From assembly GCA_963971535.1 (NCBI GenBank), contig OZ020586.1, positions 69,733,548-69,797,547 of the forward strand: a stretch of 64,000 nt of DNA. The letters run 5' to 3'. Origin of the DNA: Notolepis coatsorum (taxonomy: Eukaryota > Chordata > Actinopteri > Aulopiformes > Paralepididae). Position 1 is the stretch's first letter; every line of letters begins with the position of its first letter. Positions 1 to 62,109 of the stretch are shown here, piece after piece. Made by a program: the position numbers and the translations under genes. Under the pieces are notes generated by a model that worked only from the letters and a program-made list of their open reading frames with translations, did no database searches and was not told the origin of the DNA.

Positions 1-59
1 CCAGGCTCTGTGGTGCCCTCAGCTGGATGGGGAGGCTGTTCCACAGGCGTGGTGCAGCT

Positions 60-190
60 GAGCAAAGCAGTTTGTGTGTATTATGGTGCCTTTGAGTGAC
101 AGGGACATGCCACTACTTTGAGTGTATTATGGTGTCTTTGAGTGCTAAGTGGCAGGGACATGCCACTAGTTTGTGTGTATTATGAATGAA
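60..190. repeat. Minisatellite fragment, ~50-bp unit
   Basis: Two to three degenerate copies of a unit reading roughly TGTATTATGGTGTCTTTGAG followed by a GGCAGGGACATGCCACTA core. The same unit returns at 4025-4260. No coding potential. Confidence 0.6.
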
Positions 191-1165
191 AGATCTTTAT
201 TGTCATTGTCACAATGGTACAACGAAATAAAAAAATGCAGCCCTAGGTGCTAACACAGAGTCCTAGATAATAAAAACAGTCCTAAAACACAGTATTAAAA
301 TAATAAAGACAAGAGTGAGACATAATAGACATAAACAGGGGGGGTATAAAAGAAAATTGCACTATTCCCTTGGTGTTGTGTGTGCGTGGAGGGGGGGGGG
401 GGATTGTTGTTTTACATTTTAGCTGAGTTTAGTGCACTTATGGCCCTGGGATAAAAACTGAACTTATATCTGTTAGTCCAGGTGGGCATGACGCTGAAAT
501 GCCTGCCCGAGTGCAGCCGTATGAGGTGTTTGTTGCCAGGGTGGTGTGGGTCCTTAGGTATTTTCACTGCTCTTCCAGTGAGGGGAGAGGGCATCCGATG
601 ATTTTTTGGGCCGAGTTGACGACCCTGAGTATTCTCAGGAAGTAGAGTCTCTGTTGTGCCTTCTTCACGATCGCCTTGGTGTTGGTTCTCCAGGTCAGGT
701 CATCCTCCAGGTGGACGCCCAGGAATTTGATGACTGAGACTCTCCACGCATCCCCCGTCGATGTACTGGGGCTGTATGTCGGTCTTCTTCCTCCTGTAGT
801 CCACGATCATCTCCTGGGTTTTTAGCTTATTGAGCTGCAGGTTGTTAGTTTTGCACAGCTGCTCTACCTCATTGCGGTACGCGGTCTCGTCACCTTTTGA
901 GATACAGCCCACCACGGTGGTGGTGTCGTCAACAAACTCGATGATGGCGTTGCTGGGGTGGACTGCGGTGAAGTCGTGGGTGTAAATGGAGTAAAATAAG
1001 GGACTCCGCACACAGCCCTGGGGGGATCCGGTGCCGAGGCTGATGGCTGTGGAGGCCTATCCTGACCCTCTGGAGGCGGTCAGACAGGAAGTCCTTGGCC
1101 CACAGGCAGAGGGGGTGGTTTAGTCCAAGATCTAGGAGTTTGGGCACTAGTCTGTCATAGTCTGT
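181..1165 (-). mobile_element. Rex1/CR1-group LINE fragment, 3' part with RT remnant
   Basis: The minus strand carries reverse-transcriptase remnants in two frames. Recognisable pieces are a DYDRLVPKLLDLGL palm segment near 1120, a PPGL.AESLILL loop, YSIYTHDF, the catalytic box as FVDD (normally FADD) near 930, and KTQEMIVDYRRKK near 800. The 3' end near 181-215 (AAGATCTTTATTGTCATTG on the plus strand) resembles tails of this LINE group. Frameshifts and the altered catalytic box mark it as dead. Its 5' side ends where the 1.3-kb dispersed repeat starts. Confidence 0.75.
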
Positions 1166-1572
1166 AATATAAATATTATCATGTCTTATACAACAGCATG
1201 CAAATTTCTCGATTCTGATTGGCCATTTACACGTCTTTATTGGCAACAATCCACGGTCCTGGGCTCAGGACCCGCCCACAACCGAATCACATATCACTCC
1301 CCGGCTCACTCCGGGAGAAAACAAGATCGCGGACAACAAATGGTTATGTTGAAAGCACCATAACGACTAAATATGAAGCGATTCTGTCAAGGGGAATGTG
1401 TTAGTCCTTTAAACAATGTTGGATGATGTAATTGATGGGTCTTGAGTCAATCTAGAACAAAAGAAAAATCGCGGATTGATTGATTGATTAATTGATTGAT
1501 TTAAATTTCTTCCTTCCTACTTTCTACTGACTGCAGCGTTCTCTCTCACACTGTCCGACGCTGGCGTACCCA

Positions 1573-1737
<165 letters not shown>

Positions 1738-1994
1738 GTCTGCAACAGCGGGGGAGTCAGACTGAGAGAGAAGCAGCGCTGTTTTAAGTGAGCATGGTCT
1801 ATTGAATTGATTGATTGGTTGATTGCTAATTTTATTACTGTACCCCTGGTTTCCAACTGGTTAAGTTTAGGCTAAAAGAAATAAATAAAAAAATAGGGCG
1901 AAGAAAACGTTTTTTTCCTATAGGGCAAAGAAAACGTTTTAATTTGTTTTACCTACTTTATATAGAAGCATCTAAGAATGAAGTTCTATGGAAA

Positions 1995-2085
1995 GTAGGT
2001 CTGCATTCCCTTAACAATTGTGTGTATTGAGCCGTACTGTATTGTACCCATTCTGCATCTGGTAATAAAATTTTCAATCAATCAT
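1995..2085 (+). mobile_element. LINE 3' tail (family with CAAT-type tail)
   Basis: Contains GTCTGCATTCCCTTAACAAT, GAGCCGTACTGTATTGTACC and a CAATCAATCATT tail, the same 3' end as in the longer copies at 2917-3835 and 34627-35425. It is absent from the inverted copy of the surrounding repeat, so it was gained here or lost there. Confidence 0.7.
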
Positions 2086-2382
2086 TCCAATAATACACAG
2101 TTGGATGTGTTAGTTGGTTGGATGCACTTCAAGCTGCTTCCACATGAGGCAACTTCTCTCAATCATTCCAATAATACACAGTTGGATGTGTTAGTTTGGT
2201 TGGATGCACTTCAAGCTGCTTCCACATGGAGGCAACTTGTCTTTTTTGTAGTTGTGGGAACTACTTTTTCTGGCGGATGGTTTTTTCAATAAATCTTCGA
2301 TTAATGTGTGTTTATTGTATAGAAATAAGGTTGGATGAATCTGGCAGTTGTATAAAAGCTTTACACCACTTGTAGTCGTGAT

Positions 2383-2451
2383 TTGTGACCAATAAACCAT
2401 GCCTAGGGGGGTCTAACGACCACCCCTAGGCATGGTTTATTGGTCACAAAC
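2383..2451. repeat. Perfect hairpin at the end of dispersed repeat copy A
   Basis: Arms read GTGACCAATAAACCATGCCT and its reverse complement around a short spacer. The matching hairpin in copy B (45769-45866) has a spacer longer by about 20 bp, holding CCCGAGGCGCAGCCGAGGG. Confidence 0.85.
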
Positions 2452-2476
2452 CACTCCTGCGCGTGATGTAATGCTT

Positions 2477-2810
2477 AAATATAGTTTCTGTGTTAAAATA
2501 CATATTCTATCTCTGATAGCCTTGACTAGTTAATATGATCAACTAGTATACAGCTTTAAGAGACTAGGCGCCAGTCTGATGGTGTCTCTTAAACTCAGCC
2601 AAAGGGCCAGGAGATATGAGAGGTCCAAGGTTATTTTCCTCTTCAGTTCTAGTGTGAAGACATAACATAAGCCCTAGAGCCGTCTTTGTTATTCATTCTC
2701 TCACTAGGGCATATTTTGTTTACCTTTTCTGTCATATCTGGTATCTCATGTACGTACGTTATTTCGATTATGTATTTAATCTAAGTTCTGACCAGAGCTC
2801 TTTCTCACTT
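2477..2810. other. Unassigned spacer
   Basis: AT-rich unique-looking sequence between the dispersed repeat and a minisatellite. No ORF, splice-like exon or repeat signature seen. Confidence 0.4.
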
Positions 2811-3925
2811 TCTGGTCAGACGTTTAGCATGACTGATCACTTTCTGGTCAGACGTTTAGTATGTCTGATCACTTTCTGGTCAGACGTTTAGCATGTCTGA
2901 TCACTTTCTGGCAGGAGCACTCATTCAAGGGTACTACGACTATGCGTGCACCTCATGGTACCAAAGCACCTCAAAGGCACTTAAAACAAGATTACAAACA
3001 TCACAAAACAAACTGGTCCGTCAGACTACTACTTGACCTTACCCCCAGAACCCACCTCACCCCTGCCCACTTTGACAACCTAGGATGGCTTAGAGTAGAC
3101 GACAGAGTACAGCAACTTGCAATGGGCCTGGTCTACAAGATACACTATACGACTAAGGTACCCATGTACATGTCAAAATACTTCCCAAAGGTCAGTGAAT
3201 ACCACAACCACTACACCAGAGGAAGCTCAACAAATCATGTTAAACCCAGATTCGGCTCAAACAAGGGACTAAACACGTTTCGCAATTATGCCACATCAAT
3301 GTGGAACGCCCTACCCAAAGCTGTAAAGGAATGTGAATCCCTACCCACATTCAAAACCGCTCTTAAAGAGCACCTACGGGAGGCTGCAATTCAAAACTGG
3401 CCACCGTAAATGCCCAAAAACCCCACCACCTCCTAATAGACAGTCCCCTCCCCTCCTAATAGACAGTCCCCTCCCCACCGCATGTATATATTCCCTCCCC
3501 GCCGTATGTATATTTCTCTCCCACCCACCCACCCCCTCCTAATGTACAGTCCCATCCCCATCATATGTATATACTCTGTCAGCATCTAGGGGTAACAGTA
3601 CTGTATATTTGAATACCGTTGATGTCACAAATGTATCAGTACTAAATACCTATATGTCATGTATGTTGTGTATGTCATAAATGTCTATATGAATTGAAAA
3701 TGGGGGACCCTGATGGAAACAAGACAAACGTCTTTCTCAGGTCTGCATCCCCTTAACAATTGTGTGTATTGAGCCGTACTGTATTGTACCCATTCTGCAA
3801 TCTGTTAAATAAAGTTTTCATTCATTCATTCAGACGTTTAGCATGACTGATCACTTTCTGGTCAGACGTTTAGCATGTCTGATCACTTTCTGGTCAGACG
3901 TTTGGTATGTCTGATTGTAAACTGA
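2811..3925. repeat. 32-bp minisatellite, split by a LINE
   Basis: The unit reads TGATCACTTTCTGGTCAGAC plus GTTTAGCATGTC. About three and a half copies occupy 2811-2916 and about three more 3832-3925. The two halves continue in register across the LINE inserted at 2917-3831. Confidence 0.85.
2917..3831 (+). mobile_element. Non-LTR retrotransposon, 5'-truncated 3' end
   Basis: Translation gives the C-terminal end of an RT ORF: DLTPRTHLTPAHFDNLGWLR, then YATSMWNALPKAVKECESLP and FKTALKEHLREAA, followed by a stop and a ~400-bp 3' UTR ending in a (CATT)n tail. Other copies of this family lie at 26366-26800, 32165-35425 (split), and as tails near 2000, 37565, 55935 and inside the fold-back at 59256. 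The clade is uncertain; the C-terminal pattern fits the Jockey/CR1 superclade. Confidence 0.8.
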
Positions 3926-4024
3926 GCTCTGTGAAAGCAGATTAATAAACTATGTTCTATATTTTTATATACAAATTGACTCGATCTGAATTCCTACAGT
4001 TTACTGTTTGGCTCATTTGAATAT

Positions 4025-4260
4025 TCCACAACAGTGTCTTTGAATGCTAGGTGGCAGGAACATGCCACTACTTTATGTGTATTATGGTGTCTTTGAGTGC
4101 TATGTGACGGGGACATGCCACTACTTTGAGCATATTGTGGTGTATTGTATATGTATGTATATGGTGTATATTTGGAGTATGGAGTATGAGTATGTTTCAT
4201 GCGGATACAACACAATCTCACTTGTGCAGTCTTTAATTTAGTATGTGTGCATTATGGCTA
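4025..4260. repeat. Minisatellite related to 60-190
   Basis: Degenerate ~50-60 bp copies sharing GTGTCTTTGAGTGCTA and GGACATGCCACTACTTT. The two blocks flank the LINE, dispersed repeat and minisatellite cluster between them. Confidence 0.65.
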
Positions 4261-5689
4261 CTACTGTATATGCAGGCTACAATTGTTAATATAATTTGGC
4301 ATTTTATTTATGAGAGAGAGAGCGGTTTATGCATCAAACATGCATATAACTATTTATATTTTACTTGTGATGATTAAAAATATAAATCAATTAACGTTAG
4401 CTCATATTTAACGTTATATTGATTTTGAAAGCTAAACATCCACATCGGAAGTCTTATTTGTTGATTGTCCTTGCGTATCCGTTTCGCCTTCAAAATAAAA
4501 GCGCAGAACTAGACCATTCCATGTCGTCGCTTATCGGTCAGGTAAGAAACATATCGACCCATGTATGGCTGATCTTGTATAATAGGTTAAATGCCATTAG
4601 TTTACAAATGTATTTAGGCTGTCACGTTGATCACATTTCGTTCGGCTATATTGGAGAGCTTCCACTTACAACGACAATAGCTAACTTGATTAGCTAACTG
4701 GTAGCTAACGTTAACTGGTATCTCGCACAGCTCGCTACCTGATATTATTTCAACCAGGCATCGCAGAGGGCCTTTTAGTTACAAACTATAGTCACCGTAG
4801 ACATCCGTGATATTTGGCCGCTAACTAACAACTAGAGCTGATAAACTGGTATCTCACATGGTGGACGTTAGCCTCGCTAGCTAACGTAGCCCTGTGTGTA
4901 CGAAGAACCCAACCATTCATTGCTACGACTTGCGGTCAGTTCTTGTCATAATAGCATACATTTCCTTTGATAGTTTTGGCATTCAAATCCATTTTTAGTC
5001 AAATATCGGAATATTACTGTTCTATGACTTGTTTACAAGATCAAATAATAATAAATGCCCAATTATGTTTCTCATAAAGTTACTGTAACATCGGCCGTTA
5101 TCTCTTCCATTGCTATGTATAAAACAATGGTTGCTATGTTACAGGCAGCCATGCTGAAAGAAATACAGAACTAAGCATTCAATGCGAGCGAGGCCTATTG
5201 CTGCGAGCGATAAAAGGGAGCTTTGTGTTGCTGTGATTGACATCTGTCGCGCTCACAGAATGTGGCCCTGTGTGAATCTCGTGGAACCGTAGAGATATTT
5301 TATGAAATGTAAAATACTTTAAAAGGAAACTGATACTCCCAAGTTGCTGCAATTAATTATTAGGTGAGTAAAAACATCGGAGACACACTGCATGATCTAT
5401 AGCTGGTATAGAATACATGCAAGGTATTCAGCTAACTAATGTTATCCCAGATGAGTCTCTCTCTCTTGTTTTTCCTGACCATGGTTTGTTTGAGTGAAAG
5501 ACACTTCTCAGCCTCTCTCTTCTCAGTCTCTTTTCATAGATTCATCAGTCTCTCCCTCTTCTCATAGCCTCTCTCTCATCAGTCTCTCTTCTTAATCTCT
5601 CTCTTCGTATAGCCTCCAGCTCTTCTGTCTGGTTTCCATTATAAACTGCTCACTTCAAACTGGTTGTGTCTCATTATATTTTAAACAGG
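4261..5689 (+). other. Upstream region of the zinc-finger gene, possible 5' UTR exons
   Basis: No convincing coding ORF. Two good splice-donor matches lie here: CAG/GTAAGA at about 4541 and TTAG/GTGAGT at about 5362. Either could end a non-coding first exon of the gene whose first coding exon begins at 7311. CpG-containing sequence and GCTAACGTTAGC-like motifs are present. From 5460 it becomes CTCTCT-rich, and this tract resumes at 7238 after the LINE. The first-exon assignment is inference. Confidence 0.35.
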
Positions 5690-7237
5690 CGGTTGTTCAG
5701 CATCTCTTAAAGAAGCTGAACCTTGATCCTTCCCTCCCCCAAAATTACAGGCCCATATCGAAATTGCCTTTCATCTAAAAAAAAAAATCACAAAAGGTTG
5801 TTGCCACTCAACTCACTACTGCTTTAAATGTGCATGCCATTTTTGATAAATTCCAATCTGGTTTCTGTCAGAACTCCACTCTGAACAGCACTCCACCGAA
5901 ACAGCCCTCCTCAGAGTCTCAAATGACACCATGAGATCATCTGATGAGGGAACATTTTGCTGGTGCTATTAGACCTAACTGCAGCCTTTGATACAGTCGA
6001 TCACTGCATTTTGATCGAAAGGCTTAGGCAGTGGGCTGGCATCATTGGGAGTGCTCTGGACTGGTTCTCCTCTTATCTTCAGGATAGGAGTTTTTCTGTG
6101 TCTGCCGGCATTTTCACATCTGAAACTGCGGCCTTGTCCTGTGGTGTGCCCCAAGAGTTCTTTGCTGGCACCTATTTTGTTTGCACTTTACATGCTCCCC
6201 CTGGGAATAATCATTAGCCAATTTAAAGAAGTCTCCTACCACTGTTATGCAGACGATATCCAATTCTACGTCTCATTCAAGCCCGACCAATCTGACAAGT
6301 TGTCTGCCCTATTTGACTGTCTGACTGCTGTCAAGGATTGGATGGCAAACAACTTCCTTCAGTTAAACCCAGATAAAACTGAGGTTCTTATTATAGGTTC
6401 AGACAGTCACCGCAAAAGTTGCCACATGTATGGGGACCCTTTCAACAACATTAAGGTCCATACTCAGAAACCTTGGTGTTATCTTTAACTAGAAAATGCA
6501 CTTTGATCACCACATTATGTCACTGACACATACCAGTCTTTTCCATCTGCGAAATATTGCTAAACTTCTATCTGTTATGTCCCAGGCGGAGTTGGAAATG
6601 ATTGTTCATGCTTTTGTTTCATCCCGCCTGGACTATTGTAACTCCCTGTTCACTTGCCTCGATGCGTCCACCTTGGGCCAGCTATGGTCCAGAATTCAGC
6701 TGCAAGGCTGCTGACTAGGTCCAGAAAGTCATGCCACATCACTCCCATCTTAGCTTCCCTTCACTGGGTCCCCATACAATTTAGAATTAATTTTAAGGTT
6801 CTGGTCGTCACCTACAGAGCACTCCATGGTCAGGCACCTGCGTACATCTCTGACCTACTGCGTCCATACACCACGAGTAGATCTCTCAGGTCGTCTGACC
6901 AGGGCTCGTTGGCCGTCCCCCGGTCTAGATTAAAAACAAAAGGTGACCGAGCCTTCGAAACCGTGGCCCCCAGGCTATGGAATGCTCTGCCCATGGACCC
7001 AAGATCTGTGGTCTCGGTAAACACCTTTTAAAAAGCAGCTGCAGCTAAAGACTGCTGTTCAAACAGGCGTTGTCTTTTTATCGGTTTTGTTTCCCTGTTT
7101 CTTTCACGTTTTTAATTACTTTTCTTTTAACATGCTGCTATCCTTGCACTTTACTGATGTTTTTATATGTGAAGCACTTTGTGACCCTGGTCTGTGAAAG
7201 GTGCTATATAAATAAGCTTTACTTACTTACTTCTCAT
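5690..7237 (+). mobile_element. L2-like LINE, 5'-truncated, frameshifted
   Basis: Plus-strand RT pieces in order: LLDLTAAFDTVDHCILIERL (5957 on), WFSSYLQDR, CGVPQ, YHCYADDIQF with the YADD catalytic box near 6240, then HITPILASLHWVPIQFRINF and RLWNALPMDP toward the C terminus, spread over several frames. The 3' end has CTATATAAATAAGC and a (CTTA)n tail. It interrupts a CTCTCT-rich intron of the zinc-finger gene. Confidence 0.85.
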
Positions 7238-7312
7238 AGCCTCTCTCTTCCCAAGCCTCTCACACACACTTCTTCTCAGTCTCTCTCTTTCTCTCTCCCT
7301 CCGGTGACAGAA

Positions 7313-7528
7313 ATGCCAGGTCAAGGGTCAACATCAAAGAAGTGTGTGTGCCGTCATGCTGCCATCAATGTAGCCTGCAGGAGCTGCAGGAGCTGCCAGG
7401 TGGAGCAGCCACATAAACTGAGGCTAAAGAAAAAGATGGAGAAGTTTGATTTGAAGCGTGAGTGCTGGTTCCAGACCCACAAGAAGAACCACACCTCCTG
7501 TCACATCAGAGATGAAGCCTCTCTCCTG
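7313..7528 (+). CDS. Zinc-finger gene, coding exon 1 (Cys-rich N-terminal module)
   Basis: A pyrimidine-rich tract and GGTGACAG acceptor end at 7310, the ATG is at 7313, and the exon closes at CTCCTG/GTATGT. It encodes 72 residues in phase 0. The N terminus reads MPGQGSTSKKCVCRHAAINV, then a CRSCRSC cluster, a basic KLRLKKKMEKF stretch and HKKNHTSCH. The Cys/His pattern could bind zinc, but no named domain was recognised. Joining to the exon at 14748 keeps the frame (SLL then LEKLQAFGV). An upstream 5' UTR exon is likely because the ATG lies two bases inside the acceptor. The whole gene makes 617 residues. The exon chain is inferred from phase and splice sites, not from transcripts. Confidence 0.75.
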
Positions 7529-7944
7529 GTATGTGATTGATTTCATTGTATTGATCTGGTTTGGTTTCAAATGTTCCTATGAAAATTGTATTAATATTCA
7601 GGGGTAGGCACAGCAGCACCACTATGACAATGTGCCACCATGTGGTTGAAAAATAAACATATATTTATTTATTTATTAAAAACAGAATTGCAGTCAAAGC
7701 TTGGGGCCAGTTTAGAAACACATGCATCATTGTCTAATATGACTGCTGTCTTTTTCTTTATAATTCTCTTTGCCTACCGGATAGGGTCCCCCTCTGGACC
7801 ACCCCCTGGTTGCGACTCAGCACCACCTTGTTTGAAAATCCGGGGGAAAGCCCTGATATTGATAATTGTTTTATTTGTTTACTTGGTCGTATTTTTGAGG
7901 GGGCTAAAATAGTCAAAGTAGAGGTTAAGTACTTTCTTGTGGTA
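7529..7944. other. Intron sequence, nothing assigned
   Basis: Start of the intron between coding exons 1 and 2. Short AT-rich stretches and a GGGTCCCCCTCTGGACCACC patch that may be a repeat fragment. The ORFs here look fortuitous. Confidence 0.4.
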
Positions 7945-8045
7945 CTCAAATGGTCCAGAACGCATCTGCCCGACTTCTAACTCACAGCAAATCCTGGCAT
8001 CACATCACCCCAGTCCCCAGTCCCAAAATACTCCTGTCTCCCACC
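7945..8045 (+). mobile_element. Short L2-like LINE remnant
   Basis: Translates to VQNASARLLTHS then HHITPVPSPKILL, matching the conserved VQNAAARL..HITP block seen in the other L2-like copies here. About 100 bp only. Confidence 0.6.
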
Positions 8046-8187
8046 TCCCAGACCTGGTATTCACTTACAAAGATCAACTGAGTACAGAGAGTAACAGAGT
8101 ACAATAGTAACATACAATGCACAGGTGATTAAACTGGGTATAACTGAGTATTAGTGTTCAACAGATGTATACACAGTTGTAGTACAT

Positions 8188-10985
8188 TTACATTTAGTAA
8201 TTTAGCTGACTCTTTTATCCAAAGCGACTTACAAGTTCTGTACGACAAGTCATCAGGAAGGCACAACTCTATCAGCTGAGTAACAATGTTCATGAAGTGT
8301 TGAGTGCTACAGTGTAGGTTAGTTTATTAGGACAAGTGCATGACAGTAAGGTTAGTTAGGGTTCGATTTATTTTTTATTTTTTTTAATTCAGATAATGGT
8401 TAAAGAAGTGCGTCTTTAGTCAACGGCGAAAGATTGGACGGGTTTCGGCTGTCCTAACTGGGGTGGGTAGTTCATTCCACCATTGTGGGGCAAGGACTGA
8501 GAATAGGCGACTTCTCTTTGATGACCCTCCCGGAGCTTGGATAGGAGTAGGTCTGAGGCGGCCAGAAGATGCAGAGCGTAGGGGTCTTGCGGGTGTGTAG
8601 TTAGAGACCATTGACCGGAGGTAGACGGGAGCGGTTCCCTTTGCCGCACGGTATGCCAGGTCGAGGGCCTTGAAGCGGATTCGTGCAGCAATGGGGAGCC
8701 AGTGCAGGTCCCTAAGAAGTGGGGTGACATGGGCCGACTTCGGTAGGTTTGAGATCAGGCGGGCCGCTGCGTTCTGAATGAGTTGAAGAGGCTTAGTGGC
8801 AGTGGCCGGGAGGCCAGCAAGCAGTGCGTTGCAGTAGTCGAGGCGGGAGATGACTGTTGATTGGACGAGGAGTTGGGTGGCTTCTTTTGTCAGGAAGGGG
8901 CGGATCCTTCGGACGTTGCTCAGGAGGAATCTGCAGGTTCTGGTTGTCGCTGCGATGTGAGCAGAGAAGTTCAACTGGTCGTCAAGGACAACACCAAGGT
9001 TCTTGGCGGTCAGGGACGCGGTCACAGCTGTATTCTCGACTGTGATGGAAAGGTCCGTCAGGGGGGAGGATTTGGCCGGCAAGTGAAGCAATTCTGTTTT
9101 GCTTAGGTTCAGTTTGAGGTGGTTGGTCGTCATCCAGGCGGAGATGTCGGACAGACAGGCCGAGATCCGCTCAGAGACGTGGATATCTGAGGGAGGGAAG
9201 GAGAGGAAGAGTTGAGTATCGTCGGCATAACAATGATAGGAGAAGCCATGAGACCAGGGGAGGAAACAAACTTTTTGGCTTACCAGCCAACTGGCGAGTA
9301 TCTGATTTTTTTTACCAGCCAAACAGATTTTTTACCAGACAAAAAAAATCGCTAATTGTGATAATTACTTCTTTGTATGTCAAGCCGTGTCAATGTTGTG
9401 TATGCATCTGGGTAGGCACACTGTGCCTTTAAGACAGCACGGTGGTCTTACGACAGTGCTGTGAAGTACCGTCAAGTGTTGTGGTAACGTCAGTTGGGTT
9501 GGTGTGCTGTTGTGCACAGTGCACTGGTTGAGCTAGCCCCTTTCGTGACTGCCATGTGCAAGCCAGGGGCTTTTGAGCATGAAATAAAATGTCTAACCTT
9601 ACGTCGTAGTCCGGTGCTTTTTTGGAAACATTAGTCATAACAGATACACCTAGCTGGCTGCTTTGAGCACACGGGGCTAACGTTAGCTAGCAAGCAGCTA
9701 TAGCTAAAACGCTAACTAGAAGCTAACCACTGTATACAGTTCCAGTAGACTAACATTACACCTCTGTGATTTAAATGTGTCCTTAGTAACTTATACTCGA
9801 GGGTTGTACTAGGGTTGGATGCAGTTCCCCGTTGGTCAGTCTGTCTGTTTTCCATCTTCTGCTGTGTTTAACATTATCTGTTTGCGAGTGCTCCTGATGG
9901 CTAGCCTAGTACCGCGGGACTTTTATTATTATATGTCCGCGGGTTGGCCAGTACTGCGCAAACGTTTATTAAACATTATATGTCCGCGGGTGGTCTTGTG
10001 CAGTGCTCTCGTGGCACTGTCAACTAAAGCGAACACTCAGAAGACGCGCACCGTTTGCCAGTGCAGTGATTGCAGAATGTTTTATTTTTTTGTATACTCG
10101 CCAGCAGGGGAGGAAACTAACTTTTTGGCTTACCAGCCAACTGGCGGGTATCTGATTTTTTTTACCAGCCAAACCTAAAAAATACTAGCATTTGGCCAGT
10201 AAAGTGGCCTAATTTCCTCCCCTGCATGAGACGTGATAATGTTACGCTTTTGCTAAGTGAAGTGCCTCTGTGACCGCAATGAGGGCCGTTTCTGTGGGGT
10301 GGCCAGTCCGGAAGCCAGACTGATTAGGGTCTAGGAGGTCATTCTGTAAGAGATAAGCAGTAAGTTGGTTGGATACAGCACGTTCAAGTGTTTTAGAAAG
10401 GAAGGAGAGAAAAGAGACAGGACGGTAGTTGCCTATGACTGTGGGGTTCAGGGTTGGTTTTTTTATGAGCGGCGTGACTCTGGCTTGTTTTAGGGAGGTG
10501 GGGACCACCCCCGAGTTGAGTGAGGAGTTGATGGTTGCAGTTAGGAATGGGAGGATGTCTGGTGCTATGGTCTGGAGGAGTGGGGAGGGTAGCTGGTCCA
10601 GCTGGCATGTAGTCGGACGGTTCGACGTTACCAGTGTCAGGGTCTCGGCTTCTGTAATGGGAGAGAAAGATGACAGAGTGAAGGATGAGGTTCTCGATTC
10701 AGCATTTGGAATGGGTGGGGGTTGGGAGCTGCGGATGTTCTCCACTTTTTCCTCAAAGAAGATCGCGAAGTCTTCGGCAGAGAAAGATGAGGGAGGAGGG
10801 GGTGGGGGGGGGGAGTGAGGAGGGAGGACATGGTAGCATGTTTGCGAAGATTCTTGGCAGAGGCCTCGATCCTATGGTGAAAGAAAGAAGCTTTGGCATT
10901 AGTAATGGTTTTGGAGAATGTTAACAAGAGGTTGTGATATGTGTCGATGTCAGCAGTGAGGCGTGACTTTCTATACTTAGTATTA
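8188..10985 (-). mobile_element. L2 LINE, internally deleted, carrying a hAT insertion
   Basis: The 3' end at 8188 has the typical fish L2 terminus (TTTATCCAAAGCGACTTACA). On the minus strand, 10985-10233 encodes the RT N-terminal part (PTVIGNYRPVSFLSFLSKTL, then QSGFRTGHPTETAL). 9246-8420 encodes YHCYADDTQLFLSF and an open C-terminal half ending APQWWNELPTPVRTAETRPI. Removing the hAT element and one 8-bp duplication joins HLAKA directly to SHGFSYHCYADD. About 130 residues of RT palm were therefore lost before the hAT arrived. The 5' end near 10985 is a truncation. Confidence 0.88.
9255..10224. mobile_element. hAT-type non-autonomous element, TSD CATGAGAC
   Basis: Terminal inverted repeats CAGGGGAGGAAA and TTTCCTCCCCTG are flanked by identical 8-bp sites CATGAGAC (9247-9254, 10225-10232). 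The first ~75 bp (GGCTTACCAGCCAACTGGCG) are repeated in direct orientation at 10105-10180, just inside the right end. The interior has GCTAACGTTAGCTAGC-type sequence and no transposase. The left end resembles that of 30180-31228. Confidence 0.92.
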
Positions 10986-11210
10986 ATATATACAGTAATG
11001 CAGGTATAAAGACCCTATAGTAGTAAGTCATACTGTAGAACATGACATCTTATTTTAGTAGTGTCAATATGGGTACAAGGCCATCCAAAAAAAGCGTCAT
11101 GGGACAAGATAACTGGTGAGTTTAACATGGTGTCAGGATAGGAGTGCACAGCGGCTAAAGTGAAAAAGAAATGGGCTCATGTGAAATTGGAGTCCAAAAA
11201 AAGCCAGGAG
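10986..11210. other. Unassigned spacer
   Basis: AT-rich, no ORF or repeat signature recognised. Confidence 0.4.
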
Positions 11211-11300
11211 CCCAGGAGCACTCTGTATGCATCCTCACCAAGCTGCCTGCATCAGGCTGCTGCATCGTTGCTAATAAGCTATAGATTTATATGGAATTTG

Positions 11301-11776
11301 GCGCGGCTACGTGGCGCAGTGGGCAAGACGCTCGCAACGAATGCTGGAGCTCGGTCTGTGTGCTCGATGCCTCCTGTTCGAGCCCCGCTCTCCACATTGC
11401 TTTCAGTTTAGCTGGTCGTCCACAGTAATACACATTGGCCGTATTACGGGGAGGGAAACTGAAGGGTGGGGATTGGGCGTTGTGGACAGCGACTCCTACA
11501 GGTCAGTTGGTGCGCCTGCGCAGTAGAATCAAGAAGCAACGGGGGCGGGGCCCCTCCAAAGCCCAGACCCCCGACGCTGAAAGATCGAGCCGCGCAGGTG
11601 AAAAGATACCTCAAGTATCGGAGGGGACTCGTGCTATGTATGACTTAGTCCACATTGCAGCCGGCTTGTGGGAGGCAAGAAACAACGTTCGAAGACAGGG
11701 GAGGGTTGAATTGGACGATATGAAAATTGGGATTGGAGAAAAAATAGAAAATGGGAGAAAAAGTGGATACAAAAAA
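11301..11776 (+). mobile_element. tRNA-derived SINE, 18-bp TSD
   Basis: The head has box A-like GTGGCGCAGTGGGC and box B GTTCGAGCCCC. The body contains GGACAGCGACTCCTACAGGT, shared with the SINE at 31593, and the 3' end is A-rich. Flanks AGATTTATATGGAATTTG (11283-11300 and 11777-11794) are an exact duplication. Confidence 0.92.
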
Positions 11777-11905
11777 AGATTTATATGGAATTTGTTAAAC
11801 TTATCCTTTGTGTCTGTTGTCAACTCGTGAACAGTAAGATGAGCGTGTGTTTCTCCACTGGCTCTTACGATGTGCACACTAAGCAATGTAATAAATAAAT
11901 AAAAC

Positions 11906-12813
11906 TAGGGATGCCCCCCGAAACCAGGTTCTAAACAGGAACCGGTACTAAATTAGAAAAAAAATTAGTTATTGATAAGCTCCGACGTTTTCGTTTCTGC
12001 TATTTATACTCGAGAATTTAAATGTTGCGAACTATCTCTCCTCTCTCTGTCTGCAGGAGAAGCAGGGCTGTTAGTTTACACACACTCGCGAGCGACACTC
12101 ACACAAATGCACATACGGGTACTTGGCTCCGTGCTGAAGCGTGCAGCACACAGACCGAGCTCTGCGCTCATGGCGGAGAGAACAAAACGAAAGTCTGGGT
12201 ACACTTTACGAAAGTCGATGCCGACAACGCGCGTTGCCACAAGTGCAATAACACATTTGCAAGTAAGGGTGGGAATACAAGCAATTTGTCAAAACATCCG
12301 TTGTCAAAACACAACATTAGTCTGCAGAAATGCGCCGTTTTCGACTGCTTTGCTTGCAGTGTTCCATCCACGTCCACGTCCACTGCAGGTAAGCCAAGAT
12401 ACGGAGTTAGCTAGGCTAATAACGAATTATTACGAATAGGCTAATAAATTAAATATAATTGCTTAGCTAATTGTTTAGCTACAAATATATTTGAAAGATG
12501 ACACATTTTTATAGATAGTCAATCGTCATCAGGCTGAGGCTGCAGCTACCATGTCCCAGCCCACCCCTCCTCCCTCTACCACCGATCCCAGCCAAGCCCA
12601 AAGTCCCTTCATCCTAGCTATAATATTTATTTATAACGTTATATAAAAGAACATTGCTGCTGTTGCTGAAGAAATAATATTTATTTATAGTTATAAATAA
12701 TAAAGCAATGTCGATTTTGTTCTTAATTAAATGGTATTTCTTTCTGGCAAAATAATCAAAAAGAACCGATAAGAGTAGTAGTATCGATAAAATCCTAACG
12801 ATACCCATCCCTA
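11906..12813 (+). mobile_element. hAT (Ac-like) element with BED-finger remnant, TSD AATAAAAC
   Basis: Starts TAGGGATG and ends CATCCCTA, flanked by AATAAAAC at 11898-11905 and 12814-12821. It contains the 5' part of a transposase gene. The rest of the transposase is gone, so it is an internally deleted derivative. Confidence 0.9.
12170..12414 (+). pseudogene. hAT transposase 5' fragment, BED zinc finger
   Basis: An ATG at 12170 opens MAERTKRKSG. In a shifted frame from 12190 a BED finger follows: VWVHFTKVDADNARCHKCNN, KGGNTSNLSKH and LSKHN, with the expected C-x2-C and H...H ligands. The frame change and the loss of everything downstream make it non-functional. BED fingers are DNA-binding modules of hAT transposases and of host ZBED proteins. 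The flanking TSD shows a transposon origin here. Confidence 0.85.
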
Positions 12814-12821
12814 AATAAAAC

Positions 12822-13433
12822 CAACAATAGAGAACAAGACGGTATATGGAATATTAATAGTCTATATTCCACTATAGCTATATCCACACGATTGGGTTTA
12901 GTTATTTATTTATTTATTCACTGTCATTTGCAGTGTTTGTGTAGTGCTTTTATTTATTTTCGGACATCACAATGCCTCGTTGAGTCATGACTATAAATGT
13001 TTATAAATTATTATTATAATTCACTTTATTAGCAGACATATTGTAAAATCATTAAGTCTGCTATAAGCTATTCTCCCTCTCGTGTGTGTGTGTGTATACA
13101 TTAAATGTACTATAGGCTACTCTTTTTGACATGGATTAGGCTAATTAGCTTTAACAATCCTGATTCCTGAGCCTATTTAATTCAAAAGGAAGATATTGAT
13201 TTAAATCAAATTTAAACATATATAGGCCATATATAAAGTACCATAGCATGGATAGATTACATATAATAACACGTATAATATACTAAAAAGCTATTTATAA
13301 TTTGTGGCCGGTAAAAAAATCTCTGGCTGGTACTTTTTTATTTTTTATTATCTAAATAGTAAATTCTGTTCCCTGTTTTTCATCATTTAGCTACATGCAT
13401 GGATACATACAACAGAAACAAATAATACGTTTA
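12822..13433. other. AT-rich transposon-like sequence
   Basis: No gene. 13020-13110 (AAAATCATTAAGTCTG, then a GTGTGTGTGTATA run) is shared with 47550-47640. GGCCGGTAAAAAAATC at 13306 echoes the ends of the hAT element at 9255. Probably decayed hAT-related sequence. Confidence 0.45.
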
Positions 13434-13929
13434 ACGAATTCCATATAAATCTATAGTTTATTAGCAATGATGCAGCAGCCTGATGCAGATGACTTGGTGC
13501 GGATGCATACGGAGTGCTCCTGGGCAGCTGCGGTCAGCCACACATTCACTCAATATGGCATATCTACTGCTGCTGGAAGATATTAATCATGCACTGAGGA
13601 GCCGGACCAGACGCTCAAACCTGTGCCACCACACGTCCAGGTACTGTCCACCTTGGGCACGTGCGCATCATGGCACCCTGCGTTTCCATATCTCAACAGA
13701 AAGCAATACCACACAAGCAATACCACGCCAAGCCCGTTACAGTCATATTAACGAGCGGGTGTTATATTTCAAGATAATAAAGTAGCTATAATGAGTCAAT
13801 AGATAAGCAGTAATGGCATGTAGGTTGCTCAGCCTACTCATGTACAGTACTAACAGTAGGCTTCCACACTACACAGCATTTTCAGACAATGATAAACTTC
13901 ATGGCTCATCTCCTACTCTGGGTATTCAG

Positions 13930-14130
13930 GAGGTGGTGTCAGATTGGTAACTTCCCAAGTGAAGTGACCTAAGGATACTAGTAAAACATTTTGAAATATT
14001 CAATTGCAAATGGAATCAATTGTTGTTTTTTCTGGTAAATGAATCATTTAGATTAATTGACTAATCAATAATTAATAATCTACAGATTAATCGATAACAA
14101 AATAATCGTTAGTTGCAGCCCTAGTAGGAC
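13930..14130 (-). mobile_element. MITE fragment ending in GCAGCCCTA
   Basis: The sequence up to 14124 (ATCGATAACAAAATAATCGT then TAGTTGCAGCCCTA) is the reverse of a widespread AGGGCTGCAACTAACGATT terminus. The opposite end and a target duplication were not found. Confidence 0.5.
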
Positions 14131-14220
14131 ATAAATATAGGCAATAAAAATGTAATCTGAATATAAAAAGAGAAGATTAAACTAGACACAAAGGTGAAGA
14201 TGAGGCCTAAAAAAAATAAT

Positions 14221-14522
14221 GGTTTGTTTCCGGTTGCCGACCTACCCTGCCGATTTAGGTGCGACCCAATATATTTTGAGTTAAAAAAAATATTTATTTT
14301 TAAATTTTTTATTCTTTATAAAGTTTCATAGAAATCTTAGTCAAACCTTTAGTATTATGGATATTAAACATGCTGGCAGAGTACATGCATCCATGTTGTT
14401 GTGAACATTTTAATTAAATAAAGAAATTCCCTATCCATAGTCGCCGTGGGAAAGAATAAAAAAAAAAAAAAAAAAATTCCCTACCTACCCATGGCCTTAA
14501 CTGACAACCAACAGGAAACGAA
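14221..14522. mobile_element. ~300-bp MITE with 15-bp inverted ends
   Basis: GTTTGTTTCCGGTTG at the left and CAACAGGAAACGAAC at the right are inverted with two mismatches. The interior is A/T-rich with poly-A near 14458-14476. Flanks AATAAT and AATATT are only weakly alike, so the superfamily is not assigned. It lies in the intron before the exon at 14748. Confidence 0.6.
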
Positions 14523-14747
14523 CAATATTTTTTGTTATGCCCGAGGGTTTGTATAACGGTCATATTATAAGTTACAATAAATATAAGCAATACAAATTGT
14601 ATCTGAATATAAACTATGAATAAAAATAAAACTATACACAAAGGTGCAGAAGAGGGTCTGTATCGGTCATAATATACCTATTATGTGGTTCTTCAGTGCA
14701 ATGGTTAAATGATTGATTATTGTTTTATTTTGTTTACTCGTTTCTAG

Positions 14748-14916
14748 CTGGAGAAATTGCAGGCATTTGGAGTGAGGGCTGTTCTGCTGATGTCCAGGCC
14801 CGGCAGGAAGCCTGGCACCTGGGTCTCAGAGCGTCTGTCTCCGAGGTGTTGCCTGACGGACACATCGGCTGCATGCCTGAAACGAATGCAGGGGCTCTTT
14901 GACGTCGTTATTCAAG
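14748..14916 (+). CDS. Zinc-finger gene, coding exon 2
   Basis: Acceptor CGTTTCTAG ends at 14747; donor CAAG/GTAAGG follows 14916. The 169-nt exon is open in phase 0-in, 1-out and encodes LEKLQAFGVRAVLLMSRPGR, then GTWVSERLSPRCCLTDTSAA and CLKRMQGLFDVVIQ. The pattern (hydrophobic VRAVLLM strand, paired Cys, final amphipathic helix) suggests a folded module continuing from exon 1. No named family was recognised. It is residues 73-128 of the predicted 617-residue protein. The intron before it contains a LINE, hAT and SINE cluster of over 7 kb. Confidence 0.75.
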
Positions 14917-15044
14917 GTAAGGTTCTATAGACGGGTTTCTTGTTTGTAAACACGATGTCTTTGAGCCAATCTGCAATACCCGCTGAATCGCATGACTAAG
15001 TTACCCCCTACCTGCGTTGAGCTGTGGCGCTAAAAAGGTACAAG

Positions 15045-15185
15045 TATAATGGGGCTCTATGGAGAAACCATGGCACTACCCTGACTAAAAGTATAATGGA
15101 GCTCTATGGAGAAACCATGGCACTCCCCTAACTAAAATTATAATGGAGCTCTATGGAGAAACCATGACACTGCCCTGACTAAAAG
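15045..15185. repeat. 47-bp tandem repeat, three copies
   Basis: The unit reads TATAATGGAGCTCTATGGAG then AAACCATGGCACT...CTGACTAAAAG, in the intron between coding exons 2 and 3. Confidence 0.85.
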
Positions 15186-15421
15186 TTGTTTAAAACTAAA
15201 ACGGCTGGATGTAATTTTGCCAAGTCAGCATGGATGTGAGTGAGTCTTTCACCTTTTACATATCTAGCTTTGGCATGGATTGATTGTTTAGATCGCTAGC
15301 ATGGCTAACAAATGCAAATATATTGTACTCTGCCCCGTTGTTCTGACCATATCTCACCTGAGATATGATTAACCTGGGAAAGTAATAACACTCTTCATGA
15401 TTCAATCTGTCTCCCATGGAG

Positions 15422-15535
15422 GCTGGACTGAGACAGCGGTGCCAGTAGCCACAGCGGGACCCCCGACCGAACCCCCAGCGGCCCTGATTAGGACCAACAG
15501 CCTTGATTCGCTGGAGTCCGTGGTCAAGGAAATGG
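15422..15535 (+). CDS. Zinc-finger gene, coding exon 3 (Pro/Ala linker)
   Basis: The acceptor is CATGGAG ending at 15421, rather weak in pyrimidines. The donor is ATGG/GTAAT after 15535. The 114-nt exon enters and leaves in phase 1. With its neighbours it encodes GWTETAVPVATAGPPTEPPA then ALIRTNSLDSLESVVKEM, a probably disordered linker ending in a short acidic helix. The split last codon joins the first two bases of exon 4 to make Asp (GAC). The perfect phase match on both sides is the main support. Confidence 0.68.
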
Positions 15536-16184
15536 GTAATTAACTACATTTACACACAATGTGGCATCAATATAGTACCTAATAGTTTGAATTCAGAGGG
15601 ATCATCGCACACAGTTTTGTATTTTTGCTTCTCTGATTGGTTAGAAGGAAGAGCCACGCAGTGTAACTTTAGAACAATATCTCAGCACTACACTGCTAGC
15701 AGACATTAGCCACACTTGCTAATGTTATTCCAACCAGATACACAATATATATATATAAAAGGGATGTTAACAATTAATCGAAAATCGATTGATCGTTTAG
15801 GATTTACTTGAACGTGTGAAATGTACTCCATCTACTATATAGCCTATATGTTCCAATGTTGTCTGTCTCTTAATACATTGTAGCTGTCAGTAGAAATGGT
15901 GTATTTTCAAAGCACGTTTCAATTAACAGATGGAGGGTGCAATATAAGTATGACGAGGAGGCAACTACCTTTGTGTCTGGAAAATAAGCAAAGGGGGAAA
16001 AAACACGAGCAATGGCAACTTGTAAAATGAAGCGGGATAAGATAAGCGTTGCATGATTGATCGTTCGTTACTTATGTGCCGTCTTTGCAGTGGACGAAGT
16101 CATAACATGCACAACATGTTAACTAACTAATCCGCAATGAATGAATGAATGAATCCCATTTGAAATATAAATAACTTCTCTTAA

Positions 16185-16266
16185 CCCTTTCACTACCACA
16201 CTACAGACTGTTAACTGGTTGTAGTGTAGTGAAAGACTAACCTTCTGTAGTGTGGTAGTGAAAGGG
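16185..16266. mobile_element. 82-bp TTAA-flanked MITE with perfect 23-bp inverted ends
   Basis: TTAA at 16181-16184 and 16267-16270 flank an element whose terminal 23 bp (starting CCCTTTCACTACCACACTAC) are perfect inverted repeats. TTAA targets with CCCTTT-type ends fit piggyBac-like transposons. Related direct copies of CCTTCTGTAGTGTGGTAGTG lie at 54598-54645. Confidence 0.85.
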
Positions 16267-16270
16267 TTAA

Positions 16271-16568
16271 ACCACTGTTCGTCATTCTGTCTAAAGCCAG
16301 GACTTGACTGATCTCTCTCCTGAATTCACTGTCATAAACCAGAGAAATAACATGTATGAATTCGGACATTTGAGGGAACTGAATTTGAGATGTTACCTTG
16401 ATGATCAAATGAATGAGGCATTGACTTTATGGAGCCATTTTTGCATTAATGCAAAATATAATGCCAAATATCCATTCAGAAATCAATCATTTGCGTTTGG
16501 GAACCTCTGTTTAAATTACAATTTTGACTTTCCACGATCATGAAAACAAGATCATGGAGATGAAATGA
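16271..16568. other. Unassigned intron sequence
   Basis: Part of the intron between coding exons 3 and 4. The ORFs on both strands look fortuitous. Confidence 0.35.
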
Positions 16569-17154
16569 CTGCTAGGGCTGGGCGATATGGCCAAAAATTA
16601 TATACCGGTAACGATATCGCTAATTATCGATATTGTTATAAGTATTAAAAAATATATATATATTTTTTTTAACAAGATTTATGTTTATTTTGCAGCAATT
16701 CTTTGTTGTTGCCGCCATCTTTAGTGTTACATCCCCTCACACTCATCAACTCTTCAGTTCTCAGGCTGCAGCTGGTTTGAAAGCAAAAGTAAACAAGCTT
16801 CTCTGCTGGCTGTGGCTCCAGGAGAGTTGAATAGGTCTGGCTCTGCTAGTTTTTTTGGTGGACAAACCACCGCACCTGTGCACCGTGACTCGTGACTGGA
16901 GACTAGCTCTGCTAGCACACATAGCCTACTGTGTACAGATGGTTTCAAACTGTATTTTAAATTAGAAAGCAAACAAAATAGAGAAATCTCAATTTGGTCA
17001 GTATTGTCATTTGGACAAGCAAGCCATTACTTTAAGTTGCAAGAAAGACAAGTCTGTCCACTGTCTCTGGTTTTAAAACTGCCCTGTTGCAGGTCACACA
17101 AAATGTAATAAAAAAATAAAGTCGATATTTTTTTTTCCTTCTATATCGATTATT
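16569..17154 (+). mobile_element. hAT-type element left part (TAGGGCTGGGCGATATGG end)
   Basis: Starts TAGGGCTGGGCGATATGG. A matching inverted end (ATATCGCCCAGCCCTA) is present separately at 47960. A less similar end (TTATCGCCCTG) lies near 18130, but its 8-bp flank does not match. It may be a nested or truncated element. Confidence 0.55.
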
Positions 17155-17600
17155 AACACTGTCTGCCACGCAGTTTACCCATCTTATACCACTCTCTGCC
17201 AGTGCTGTAAGCCTATGGAGTCGCTCACCTTCTTTGCAGGGCTATAACTTTTTAAATATAGCTATAGACATTACTATGGCCCATTCAACATCGGGTATCT
17301 ATCGTTCGGGATGTGGGAATGTTATATCTTTCCATTCATACATTGTCGTGTTAATACCGTCGTGAATATAAGTGTTTTTAGAGTGTAGAGCAGTAATTCC
17401 TAGAACGCGAGTTATAGGCCCCGACGCATATTATACATAATTGATTGGCGTTTCGTTCCTATACACGCTATATTAAAAACTTAAATGCATATGATCGGTA
17501 TACATTATGCTCCATCATGCGTGAAGGAAAGGGGGGGGGGGGTCGTTTATGATTCCTTGATTGTCAGTAATGGCTTTCTTTAGTACGACATCATACGTTG
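17155..17600 (-). mobile_element. TTAA-family (piggyBac-like) element end
   Basis: TTAACACTGTCTGCC, then CTTCTTTGCAGGGCTATAAC, matches the reverse complement of the right end of the element at 23676-26033 and resembles the ends at 56291 and 57104. The other end of this copy was not located. It interrupts the hAT-type sequence begun at 16569. Confidence 0.6.
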
Positions 17601-17664
17601 ATCAGATGGATTGGAATGAAATAAATGGACAATCGAGCTGGAATTAACGTTAGATTCCTCTTAC

Positions 17665-17962
17665 CTGTGGCCGATGAGTCTGGAGAAAAAATATTTGATT
17701 TCGATCTGCTATATCCATTTTCCGTTTGTACGACGCAATAAACGCCAAAAGCATATTGATTCTTGCGTCTCGAAAGCGATCCAATGCACTCAAGTGTTTG
17801 TCTGGATCCACATAACAAGATAGCTCTGCCCGGAACATTTTCCCCGATGCACAGAGCGCCCCATCCGGTTTAGAGTGGAGTGCAACTCGCCCGAAATCCA
17901 CCAGGCGGCGGTATTGAGGCGTTGCAATATCAGACAGAGTCAGGGAGGCTCCCACAGCCTTG
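17665..17962 (-). CDS. Unrecognised exon-like ORF with strong splice donor
   Basis: On the minus strand an open frame of 99 codons ends exactly at a consensus donor CAG/GTAAGA (17665/17664). It can begin after a CCAG acceptor at 17963. It encodes AVGASLTLSDIATPQYRRLV, DFGRVALHSKPDG, a FRAELSCYVDPDKHLSALDR stretch and RINMLLAFIASYKRKMDIAD. The composition looks like real protein, with balanced hydrophobics and no low complexity. I do not recognise the family. It sits inside transposon-like sequence in an intron of the zinc-finger gene. It may be a captured host exon, a transposon gene, or an exon of an antisense gene. Confidence 0.45.
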
Positions 17963-18321
17963 CTGGATGAATTATGAATGCCAATAGCGAATAAAGGTAA
18001 TAACGATCATAAAAACTAGTAAACTCGTTGTTGGCGTTATTAGATTGGCGGCCAATAACGGGTACTCGATTTTGGCGCAGAACCAGTTAAAATATATCGC
18101 GATAATTATCATTATCGTTTTATCGCCCTGCCGCATACCATGTTGCCCTCAATTTGTCTTGTGTTGTAAATGCAGCGCACCCTTCCTTCAGAGGTGTACT
18201 CTGCCCCCCTCCCCCATATACTAATATTTCCCTGTTTTAAGGGAACTATTAGTTATATATTAACTATTTTAATGGGATAATAAAAAAAATCACTCATTCA
18301 ATTGTGTGCTTCTACCTCTAG

Positions 18322-19676
18322 ACCCCCCACAGCTCTCTGTCTGTGAAGAGGAGGTTCCCCCTGAGCAGCAGGATGAGCCAGAGCTCCTACAGATTAAAGA
18401 GGAACAGGAGGAACTCTGGACCAGTCAGGAGGGAGAGCAGCTTCAAGGTCTGGAGGCTGACATCATAAAGTTAACATCCACTCCTGTCCCTGTGAAGAGT
18501 GAACATGAAGAGAAACCTCAGTCTTCACAGCTCAGCCAAACCCAGGACCCAAAGCCCCTACAGATTAAAGAGGAACAGGAAGGACTATTTAAAGATCTAG
18601 AGGAGGCTGATGTCATAACGTTCACGTTCAATCCTGCCCCTGTGAAGAGTGAACGTGATGAAGAGAAACCTCACTCCTCATCGTTTAACCAAACTCAGAC
18701 AGAGGAAAATGGAGAGGCAGAGCCTCTAGCCAGCACCTCAACTGAACAGATGAAAACAGAACGTGATGAAGAGGACTGTGGAGTATCAGAACCAGCCAGT
18801 AACTTAGACCCAGCTGGTGATTTAGCACCAACCAGAGATGTCCAGCTCCTCTCTTCAGACTGCTCTGGAACGGAGACCGATGACGACAATGACTTGAGAA
18901 AGTCTAGTGAACCTCACTCAGGTTTAAAGACACTTGAAGCACCTTGTTGTGAAGTGTGTGGAGTATGTTTCCCTAAGAAGTCTTCCTTGGTGAGGCACGT
19001 TCAAGTCCATTCAGCCGACTGCGGCTTGTGCGGAAAACATCTGGAGCTCACAGAGACCTTGAAGCTCCATCTTCAGAGTCACAGGACATGTAGCCTTTGT
19101 AGTAAAACATTTGCTTCCATTGTGGACGTCGAAAGGCACCTGAGAACTCATACCGGGGAGAAACCCTTCGGTTGTGCGGAGTGTGGCAAGCGCTTTAGTC
19201 AGAAACAAAACCTGCAGACGCACATGAGAACTCACACTGGAGAGAAACCCTTTAGTTGTTCAGTTTGTGGCAAAGGGTTCAGTCAGAAGGAAAGTATGCT
19301 GACTCATATGAGAAGCCACACTATGGAGAAACCCTTTGTCTGTACAGTTTGCGGGAACCGGTTTAGTCAAGGCGGGGCGTTGGTCACACACATGAGGGTT
19401 CACACCGGGGACAAGCCTTTCGGCTGCCCGGTTTGTAGCAAAAGCTTCAGCAGGAAAGATATATTAATGACTCACATGAGAAGTCACAGCGGGGAGAAAC
19501 CCTTCGATTGCACATTTTGCTGCAAAAGGTTTAGCGAAAAGGGAACTCTTCAGAAACACATGCGGATTCACACAGGCGAGAAACCGTACGGCTGCGTCGG
19601 CTGTGGGAAAAGGTTCACTCAGATGCCGCACTTAAAAAACCACAAGTGTCGCAGTGATGTCGGCAGCAGCAGCTGA
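18322..19676 (+). CDS. Zinc-finger gene, coding exon 4 (acidic region plus C2H2 array)
   Basis: Acceptor CTACCTCTAG ends at 18321; stop TGA at 19674-19676. The four exons total 1854 nt, exactly 618 codons. Residues 167-375 are acidic and contain a duplicated LLQIKEEQEELW-like block. They carry five psi-K-x-E motifs (IKEE twice, VKSE twice, MKTE), candidate SUMO sites. Residues 376-609 hold nine fingers. The first two have unusual spacers, fingers 3-8 are canonical with TGEKPF-type linkers, and the ninth ends H-x-C. Such proteins are usually nuclear DNA-binding regulators. The acidic/IKEE region plus array is typical of expanded fish zinc-finger families. The N-terminal module from exons 1-3 is the unusual part. 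Specificity cannot be assigned. Confidence 0.92.
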
Positions 19677-28078: not shown

Positions 28079-28081
28079 GAC

Positions 28082-36466: not shown

Positions 36467-36623
36467 CTCTCCTGTGTATCTCGTCAGGCTTCAGAGCGTC
36501 CAGCAGGCGGTCGATCTCTCCTTCGTATTCTTCTATTGTTCTTTCAAATACTTCAAATATGTCTTCAGCAGCTGCAGTCAGTCGCCCGTTGACGAAACTC
36601 CTCAGTATTTGTATTCTTGACAT
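36467..36623 (-). CDS. First coding exon of a zinc-finger gene relative
   Basis: The ATG at 36623-36621 opens MSRIQILRSFVNGRLTAAAE, DIFEVFERTIEEYEGEIDRL and LDALKPDEIHRR (52 residues). It ends at GAGAG/GTTGGT after 36467 in phase 1. The short N-terminal helix RLTAAAE.IF..FE.TI.EYE is the standard first exon of many fish C2H2 zinc-finger proteins. It joins in phase to the broken exon at 28480 on the same strand, giving a normal-looking IHRR-DPPQ junction. The exon itself is intact. Whether it is still transcribed, or spliced elsewhere, is unknown. Confidence 0.82.
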
Positions 36624-61333: not shown

Positions 61334-61604
<271 letters not shown>

Positions 61605-62109
61605 CAGGACCTGTTCAGAGGATTGCTGTTCATTGAGTATAGTTCAGCTTTCAACACCATAGTCCCCACCAGACTGGTTGACAAGCTGATTTATCTGGGC
61701 CTGAACACCGCCCTGAGCGCCTGGATCCTGGACTTTCTGACCGACAGGCCCCAGGCGGTCAGGGTGGGTGGACACACCTCCAACTCAATCACTCTGAGCA
61801 TCGGGTCCCCCCAGGGCTGTGTTCTCAGCCCTCTGCTGTACTCACTGTACACACATGACTGTGTGGCCAGGTTCAGCTCCAACTCCATAGTGAAGTTTGC
61901 GGACGACACGGTGGTGGTGGGGCTGATCTCTAACAATGACGGAGAAGGCCTACCGGGAGGAGGTTGATGTACTGGCACGTTGGTGCCGGGATAACAGCCT
62001 ACTCCTGAACATTGGTAAAACCAAGGAGCTGATCGTGGATTTTAGGAGAATACAGCAGGGGACACACAAGCCACTGTGGATAAATGGGGCTATCGTAGAC
62101 AGGGTGAGC

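Follow-up and report, generated by a model that had tools for sequence, protein, structure and literature searches.

The zinc-finger gene at 7313-19676 is probably a true member of a very large C2H2 family of fish; a single-copy module encoded by exons 1 and 2, followed by exon 3, would stand here in place of the usual N-terminal exon. The window is the whole stretch of DNA that was analysed (64,000 nucleotides). The original prediction gave four exons with their coordinates, GT/AG ends and phases, and all of these were reproduced exactly: phases 0, 1 and 1 join the exons into 1854 nt, that is 618 codons including the stop. The gene and the features discussed with it are given below.

7311..7528, + strand: exon 1; coding from the ATG at 7313; first part of the Cys-rich module, 72 aa; unique DNA.
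12022..12388, + strand: rival exon in intron 1; BED-finger ORF (to 12414), zf-BED E 8.5e-9, phase-1 donor of 7.58 bits.
14748..14916, + strand: exon 2; second part of the module (LEKLQAFGVRAVLLM...); entered in phase 0 and left in phase 1.
14925..15349, + strand: repeat in intron 2; found genome-wide, fills most of the intron.
15422..15535, + strand: exon 3; cassette of 38 codons, 114 nt, phase 1-1, weak splice sites.
18322..19676, + strand: exon 4; acidic region, then eight CX2CX12HX3H fingers, a further one that by eye is degenerate, then the stop.
18322..18938, + strand: acidic region within exon 4; residues 167-372, net charge -37, shared with the family.
36467..36623, - strand: copy of the usual first exon of the family (MSRIQILRSFVNGRLTAAAEDIFEVFERTIEEYE...); phase-1 donor read by eye; given as a contrast to the gene.

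To judge from its sequence, exon 4 is certainly an exon of a large fish C2H2 family. The acidic region is matched at least 389 times in the 3.42-Gb genome to which the window belongs (a lower bound: 150 of 2886 candidates were scored), and the phase-1 acceptor of exon 4 lies at the identical base in the 20 best of the 389 loci (the gene and 19 relatives). Membership in the genome's large acidic-exon ZNF family is judged on a homologous acidic region and on the same phase-1 acceptor, and both were found. The C2H2 class is given by eight regular fingers, CX2CX12HX3-4H with TGEKP-type linkers (zf-H2C2_2, E 6.5e-44). The earlier description of this half of the protein as a standard acidic region with a C2H2 array is thus borne out. 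The acidic region carries five psi-K-x-E SUMO-consensus motifs, where shuffled sequences average 0.38 and none of 5000 reaches five; internal repeats of the region mean that the motifs do not count as independent of one another. Five such motifs are found in 16 of the 19 relatives and four in the other three.

Compared with each of the 19 relatives, exon 4 has a dN/dS of ~0.40 (range 0.35-0.44), with dN ~0.107 and dS ~0.27. The relatives compared with one another have a median dS of 0.038 and a dN/dS of 0.64 (ratio from 154 of 171 pairs, the 17 pairs with dS <=0.02 being dropped). These values fit purifying selection on exon 4, which looks alive and apparently kept. Given a dS of ~0.27 to the relatives against 0.038 among them, the gene is best read as an old, separate lineage and the 19 relatives as a recent burst. 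Zinc-finger genes have recently multiplied in a large burst at C21:139-154 Mb, and also on C13, C8 and C91 (same median dS, 19 read).

Exon 4 alone cannot begin the full protein: its first in-frame ATG is at 18750 and not near 18306, the alternative start that the original prediction considered. Because no in-frame ATG precedes 18750, the full exon 4 requires an upstream coding exon that ends in phase 1. In the family this role falls to a short exon that we take to be of the MSKVQ.../TAAAEEIF type. Searched for with this consensus and with the minus-strand copy at 36623-36467, the exon turned up at no fewer than 150 genomic places (150 of the 369 candidates were scored; second search, 150 of 328). 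Within 264 kb round the gene, it occurs on the minus strand only (E<=0.01); the zinc-finger arrays of the same region are likewise all on the minus strand, except that of this gene. On the + strand the exon was not found in the 118 kb upstream, where E<=50 yields three scraps of 6-9 residues; 2500 of the 264,000 bases searched are N, none of them inside the window. Exons 1 and 2 are thus the likely front of the protein, since exon 4 needs an upstream exon ending in phase 1 and the usual one was not found on the + strand.

Exons 1-4 presumably form one transcript. Indirect support comes from the exon 4 phase-1 acceptor common to the relatives, from the failure to find the usual first exon on the + strand in the 118 kb upstream, and from exons 1 and 2, whose phase is the right one. 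One relative on C21 likewise has no usual first exon in its upstream 3.5 kb, and the closest acidic-region relatives (C21) have no entry among the first-exon matches listed. Because of that C21 relative, whose usual exon went unfound (counted against the preferred reading), this exon may be neither universal nor what defines the family, and its lack may not be special here.

The splice signals of the gene are good and not unique: strong splice-like pairs arise by chance too. Ranks were taken within the + strand of the window, with a simple matrix of approximate frequencies. The exon 1 donor is in the top 1.3% of GTs, the exon 2 acceptor in the top 1.1% and the exon 2 donor, the strongest of the gene, in the top 0.1%; the exon 4 acceptor is in the top 2.7%. 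The sites of exon 3 are the weakest (acceptor 15.6%, donor 8.4%). A scan for internal exons over 264 kb, both strands (open frame of 100-300 nt, acceptor and donor each scoring >=3 bits), is passed by 84 candidates, among which exon 2 is 4th and exon 1 (as 7311-7528) 29th; exon 3 fails it. Codon composition does not set exons 1-3 apart from other open windows: for exons 1, 2 and 3, the fractions of open windows that score as high are 0.09, 0.30 and 0.17 in one ranking, 0.08, 0.20 and 0.25 in a second, and 0.13, 0.30 and 0.28 in a ranking matched for G+C. This unremarkable composition, the weak sites of exon 3 and the 84 candidates of the scan are counted against the preferred reading.

An acceptor in the top 0.6% (same matrix, + strand) precedes base 7311, two bases 5' of the ATG at 7313. 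Because of this strong acceptor just 5' of the ATG, exon 1 is suggested to be the first coding exon and not the first exon of the gene. An additional 5' exon, non-coding or coding, is therefore likely upstream of exon 1; none was found there. A LINE-like tail (by eye) stops ~80 bp 5' of exon 1, which is odd for a promoter-proximal exon and is also counted against the preferred reading. An RVT_1 match lies at 6015-6485, upstream of exon 1. A CpG scan for a promoter gave no clear answer; high-ratio stretches lie at ~11900-12100 and 17100-17900 (read by eye).

The module encoded by exons 1 and 2 matches only itself. The 329-bp region 7232-7560 around exon 1 has itself as its sole match in the 3.42-Gb genome, and the protein of exons 1 and 2 has only its own two matches at E<=0.001 (8 of 8 candidates scored). 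At E<=10, the module plus exon 3 gives three own matches and five weak ones (E 2.7-9.2), two of which were read and look chance-like. A recent transposon origin of the module is disfavoured, as neither the DNA of exon 1 nor the protein of the module finds any match but itself.

The original prediction could not name the N-terminal module, and a profile search agrees: in Pfam, NCBIfam and PHROGs no entry reaches its cut-off on residues 1-129. The best matches below cut-off are Laminin_N (E 0.0062, 16.5 of 25.9 bits), DUF7441 (E 0.12) and RNA_pol_Rpb2_7 (E 0.48). No PDB sequence matches residues 1-129 at E<=10. KRAB matches neither the whole protein (E<=1) nor pieces of the module (E<=10), and zf-BED is absent from the 617-aa product, the zf-BED ORF lying in intron 1. 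No module homologue was confirmed in IMG/VR (two pattern stretches; viruses) or in GTDB genomes (48 pattern stretches; prokaryotes), two collections that say little on fish. Rfam has no match on the window. Literature searches gave nothing relevant with peptide strings of the module, and nothing with those of the usual exon and the acidic region. Judged from the domain libraries, the PDB and the literature, residues 1-129 are unnamed.

These residues are basic (net +15). Cysteines stand at residues 11, 13, 22, 25 and 28 and are followed by a Lys-rich stretch; the spacing suggests a putative zinc knot with a basic stretch after it, in what is presumed to be a folded module. Of 3251 open windows in the region, 91 hold five Cys within 18 residues, a frequency counted against the preferred reading, and 31 hold the CX1-2C...CX2C pattern. 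Single-sequence AlphaFold runs, with exons 1 and 2 modelled apart, gave poor models (pLDDT 59 and 55).

Exon 3 is likewise single: its protein matches itself only in the genome. Its GC is 0.62 against 0.39 in the flanks. The repeat upstream of it in intron 2 has at least 352 matches in the genome (40 of 2689 candidates scored). The strongest of these after the self match stop at query 648-651, about window position 15349, and intron 2 minus the repeat comes to about 80 bp. Among the repeat matches listed, none covers exon 3, nor exon 2 past its last few bases. Since the repeat matches spare the exons and the exons match only themselves, exons 1-3 are read from these matches as single-copy islands within a repeat-rich locus. 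Part of this high-copy repeat is internally tandem, and many of its pieces cluster at other places in the genome, for instance on contigs C3740 and C2896.

Whether exon 3 belongs to the main product bears on the first of the rival explanations. Because exon 3 is phase 1-1, skipping it keeps the frame: exons 1-2-4 give 580 codons with the stop, while exon 1 joined directly to exon 4 is out of frame. Exons 1 and 2 could thus be real and exon 3 unused or used only sometimes, in which case the main product would have 579 aa and its module would run straight into the acidic region. The weakest splice sites of the gene are those of exon 3, its omission leaves the frame intact, and the exon 2 donor (top 0.1% of GTs, phase 1) would meet the phase-1 acceptor of exon 4; yet exon 3 is open, GC-rich, self-matching only and phase-symmetric, and it lies in the non-repeat part of intron 2, downstream of the repeat. 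Such skipping as the main mode is unlikely. It is also unlikely, somewhat more so, that the true first coding exon is another one (the BED exon at 12022-12388, a diverged usual exon that escaped detection, or an exon farther upstream) and that exons 1-3 are chance frames. Five single-exon candidates for a first exon with a phase-1 donor exist on the + strand of 1-18321: two are forms of the BED relic, one is the 3' part of exon 2, one has a frame that adjoins an RVT_1 frame and is itself without a Pfam match, and one runs antisense over an RVT_1-bearing frame. The BED-finger ORF, which we take to be a probable relic of a hAT-type transposon, has strong splice-like sites and could in principle splice in frame to exon 4; its phase-1 donor and zf-BED match speak for it, as do the weak composition signal of exons 1-3 and the existence of chance exon candidates. 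Its frame, however, differs from that of the nearest ATG that could plausibly start a BED protein (~12170, by eye), as expected of a decayed transposon, and the usual exon was not found on the + strand in the 118 kb upstream. Two strong, frame-compatible upstream exons are unlikely to arise by chance. Free decay since the split from the relatives (0.10-0.135 per branch) would leave exons 1-3 open in 13-6% of cases when stops alone are counted, and in 0.24-0.03% with indels at an assumed ratio; this estimate presumes that exons 1-3 were coding at the split.

It is improbable that the gene is recently dead, with frames open only for want of time to decay. It does carry the one zinc-finger array in 264 kb that lies on the plus strand, the others all being on the minus strand, its introns are filled with repeats, and the adjoining minus-strand family member (28481-28087) is a pseudogene. 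Against this, all 618 codons are open, the splice ends are intact, the eight fingers are regular, and dN/dS is ~0.40 along a long branch (dS ~0.27).

Under the preferred reading, a family member with a replaced front, the eight C-terminal fingers would attach the protein to a DNA target. The acidic middle part, which has the five psi-K-x-E motifs, may be a SUMO-acceptor platform for corepressors, a role proposed from the motifs only; the motifs suggest SUMO-dependent corepressors as a putative cofactor route. The Cys-rich module (CX1C...CX2C knot, basic stretch, alpha/beta part by eye) might serve for contact with a partner protein or for dimerisation, and would thereby substitute for the cofactor choice of the relatives, so that the cofactor here should differ. 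The outcome would be repression via the recruited cofactor, with zinc binding and SUMO attachment as presumed steps. That the fingers target DNA and the front selects the cofactor is proposed by analogy with FiNZ and KRAB-like ZNFs. A farther-reaching idea is tentative and, taken whole, doubtful: that exons 1 and 2 encode an undescribed zinc-binding effector domain, single in the genome, which displaced the usual N-terminal exon within a ZNF family that silences transposons, and from which one lineage-distinct member acquired a new partner and a stable role unrelated to transposons.

Other elements of the neighbourhood are as follows. A minus-strand copy of the acidic exon (28481-28087) has an early stop and lacks the finger array; a short-repeat array (gaccactaggagctgcccagtacaac...) occupies 27500-28100, where the fingers of this pseudogene would be. 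A minus-strand relative, locus L004 (~5962-6936 in the coordinates of the locus), lies 4.0 to 3.1 kb before the window, with acidic region and fingers open. Its first exon was not found, and the nearest usual one on that strand (window position 36623) lies beyond this gene; because of this, the gene could lie in an intron of the L004 relative, on the opposite strand. The + strand ORF at 32702-33160 has a weak Spin-doc zinc-finger match (E 1.4e-4, under the curated cut-off) and is perhaps a transposon-derived gene piece. A long low-complexity trinucleotide tract at 61308-61690 reads as poly-Leu/Ile/Thr/Val; the frame that adjoins it resembles a reverse transcriptase (by eye).

Fish ZNF families multiply by hundreds round a fixed effector exon. 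A gene that kept the DNA-binding half and carries a unique effector half would be a natural domain swap, suited to probing what the N-terminus contributes; the unique front end could give an ordinary DNA-binding protein a different job. The array of SUMO motifs, which the 19 relatives read also have, points to a cofactor route that can be tested across the family. Automatic annotation could easily drop three of the four coding exons here.

Within its own genome, the gene resembles the C2H2 family with the acidic DPPQLSVCEEEVPPEQQ region (C21, C13, C7, C32 and others) in the base and phase of the exon 4 acceptor, in an acidic region 74-82% identical (best full-length matches), in SUMO-type motifs and in the C2H2 array. 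It differs in standing apart (dS ~0.27) from 19 relatives that are near-identical mutually (median dS 0.038), and in carrying exons 1-3, which are matched nowhere else in the genome. Zinc ribbons and treble clefs are small zinc domains with paired CX1-2C ... CX2C spacing; the module has such a pairing over ~18 residues, without a library match. FiNZ-ZNF (PMC10547256) and KRAB-like ZNF (PMC11603059) are reported to be tied to transposon silencing, and FiNZ-ZNF of cyprinids are described with a Glu-rich domain of 28 aa that one first exon encodes (Wells et al. 2023, PMC10547256). Both groups, as described there, share with this gene an N-terminal part on separate exon(s) before one zinc-finger exon. 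Unlike FiNZ-ZNF (PMC10547256), and compared by the published description only, the present N-terminus is basic (+15), Cys-rich, 129 aa long and encoded by two exons.
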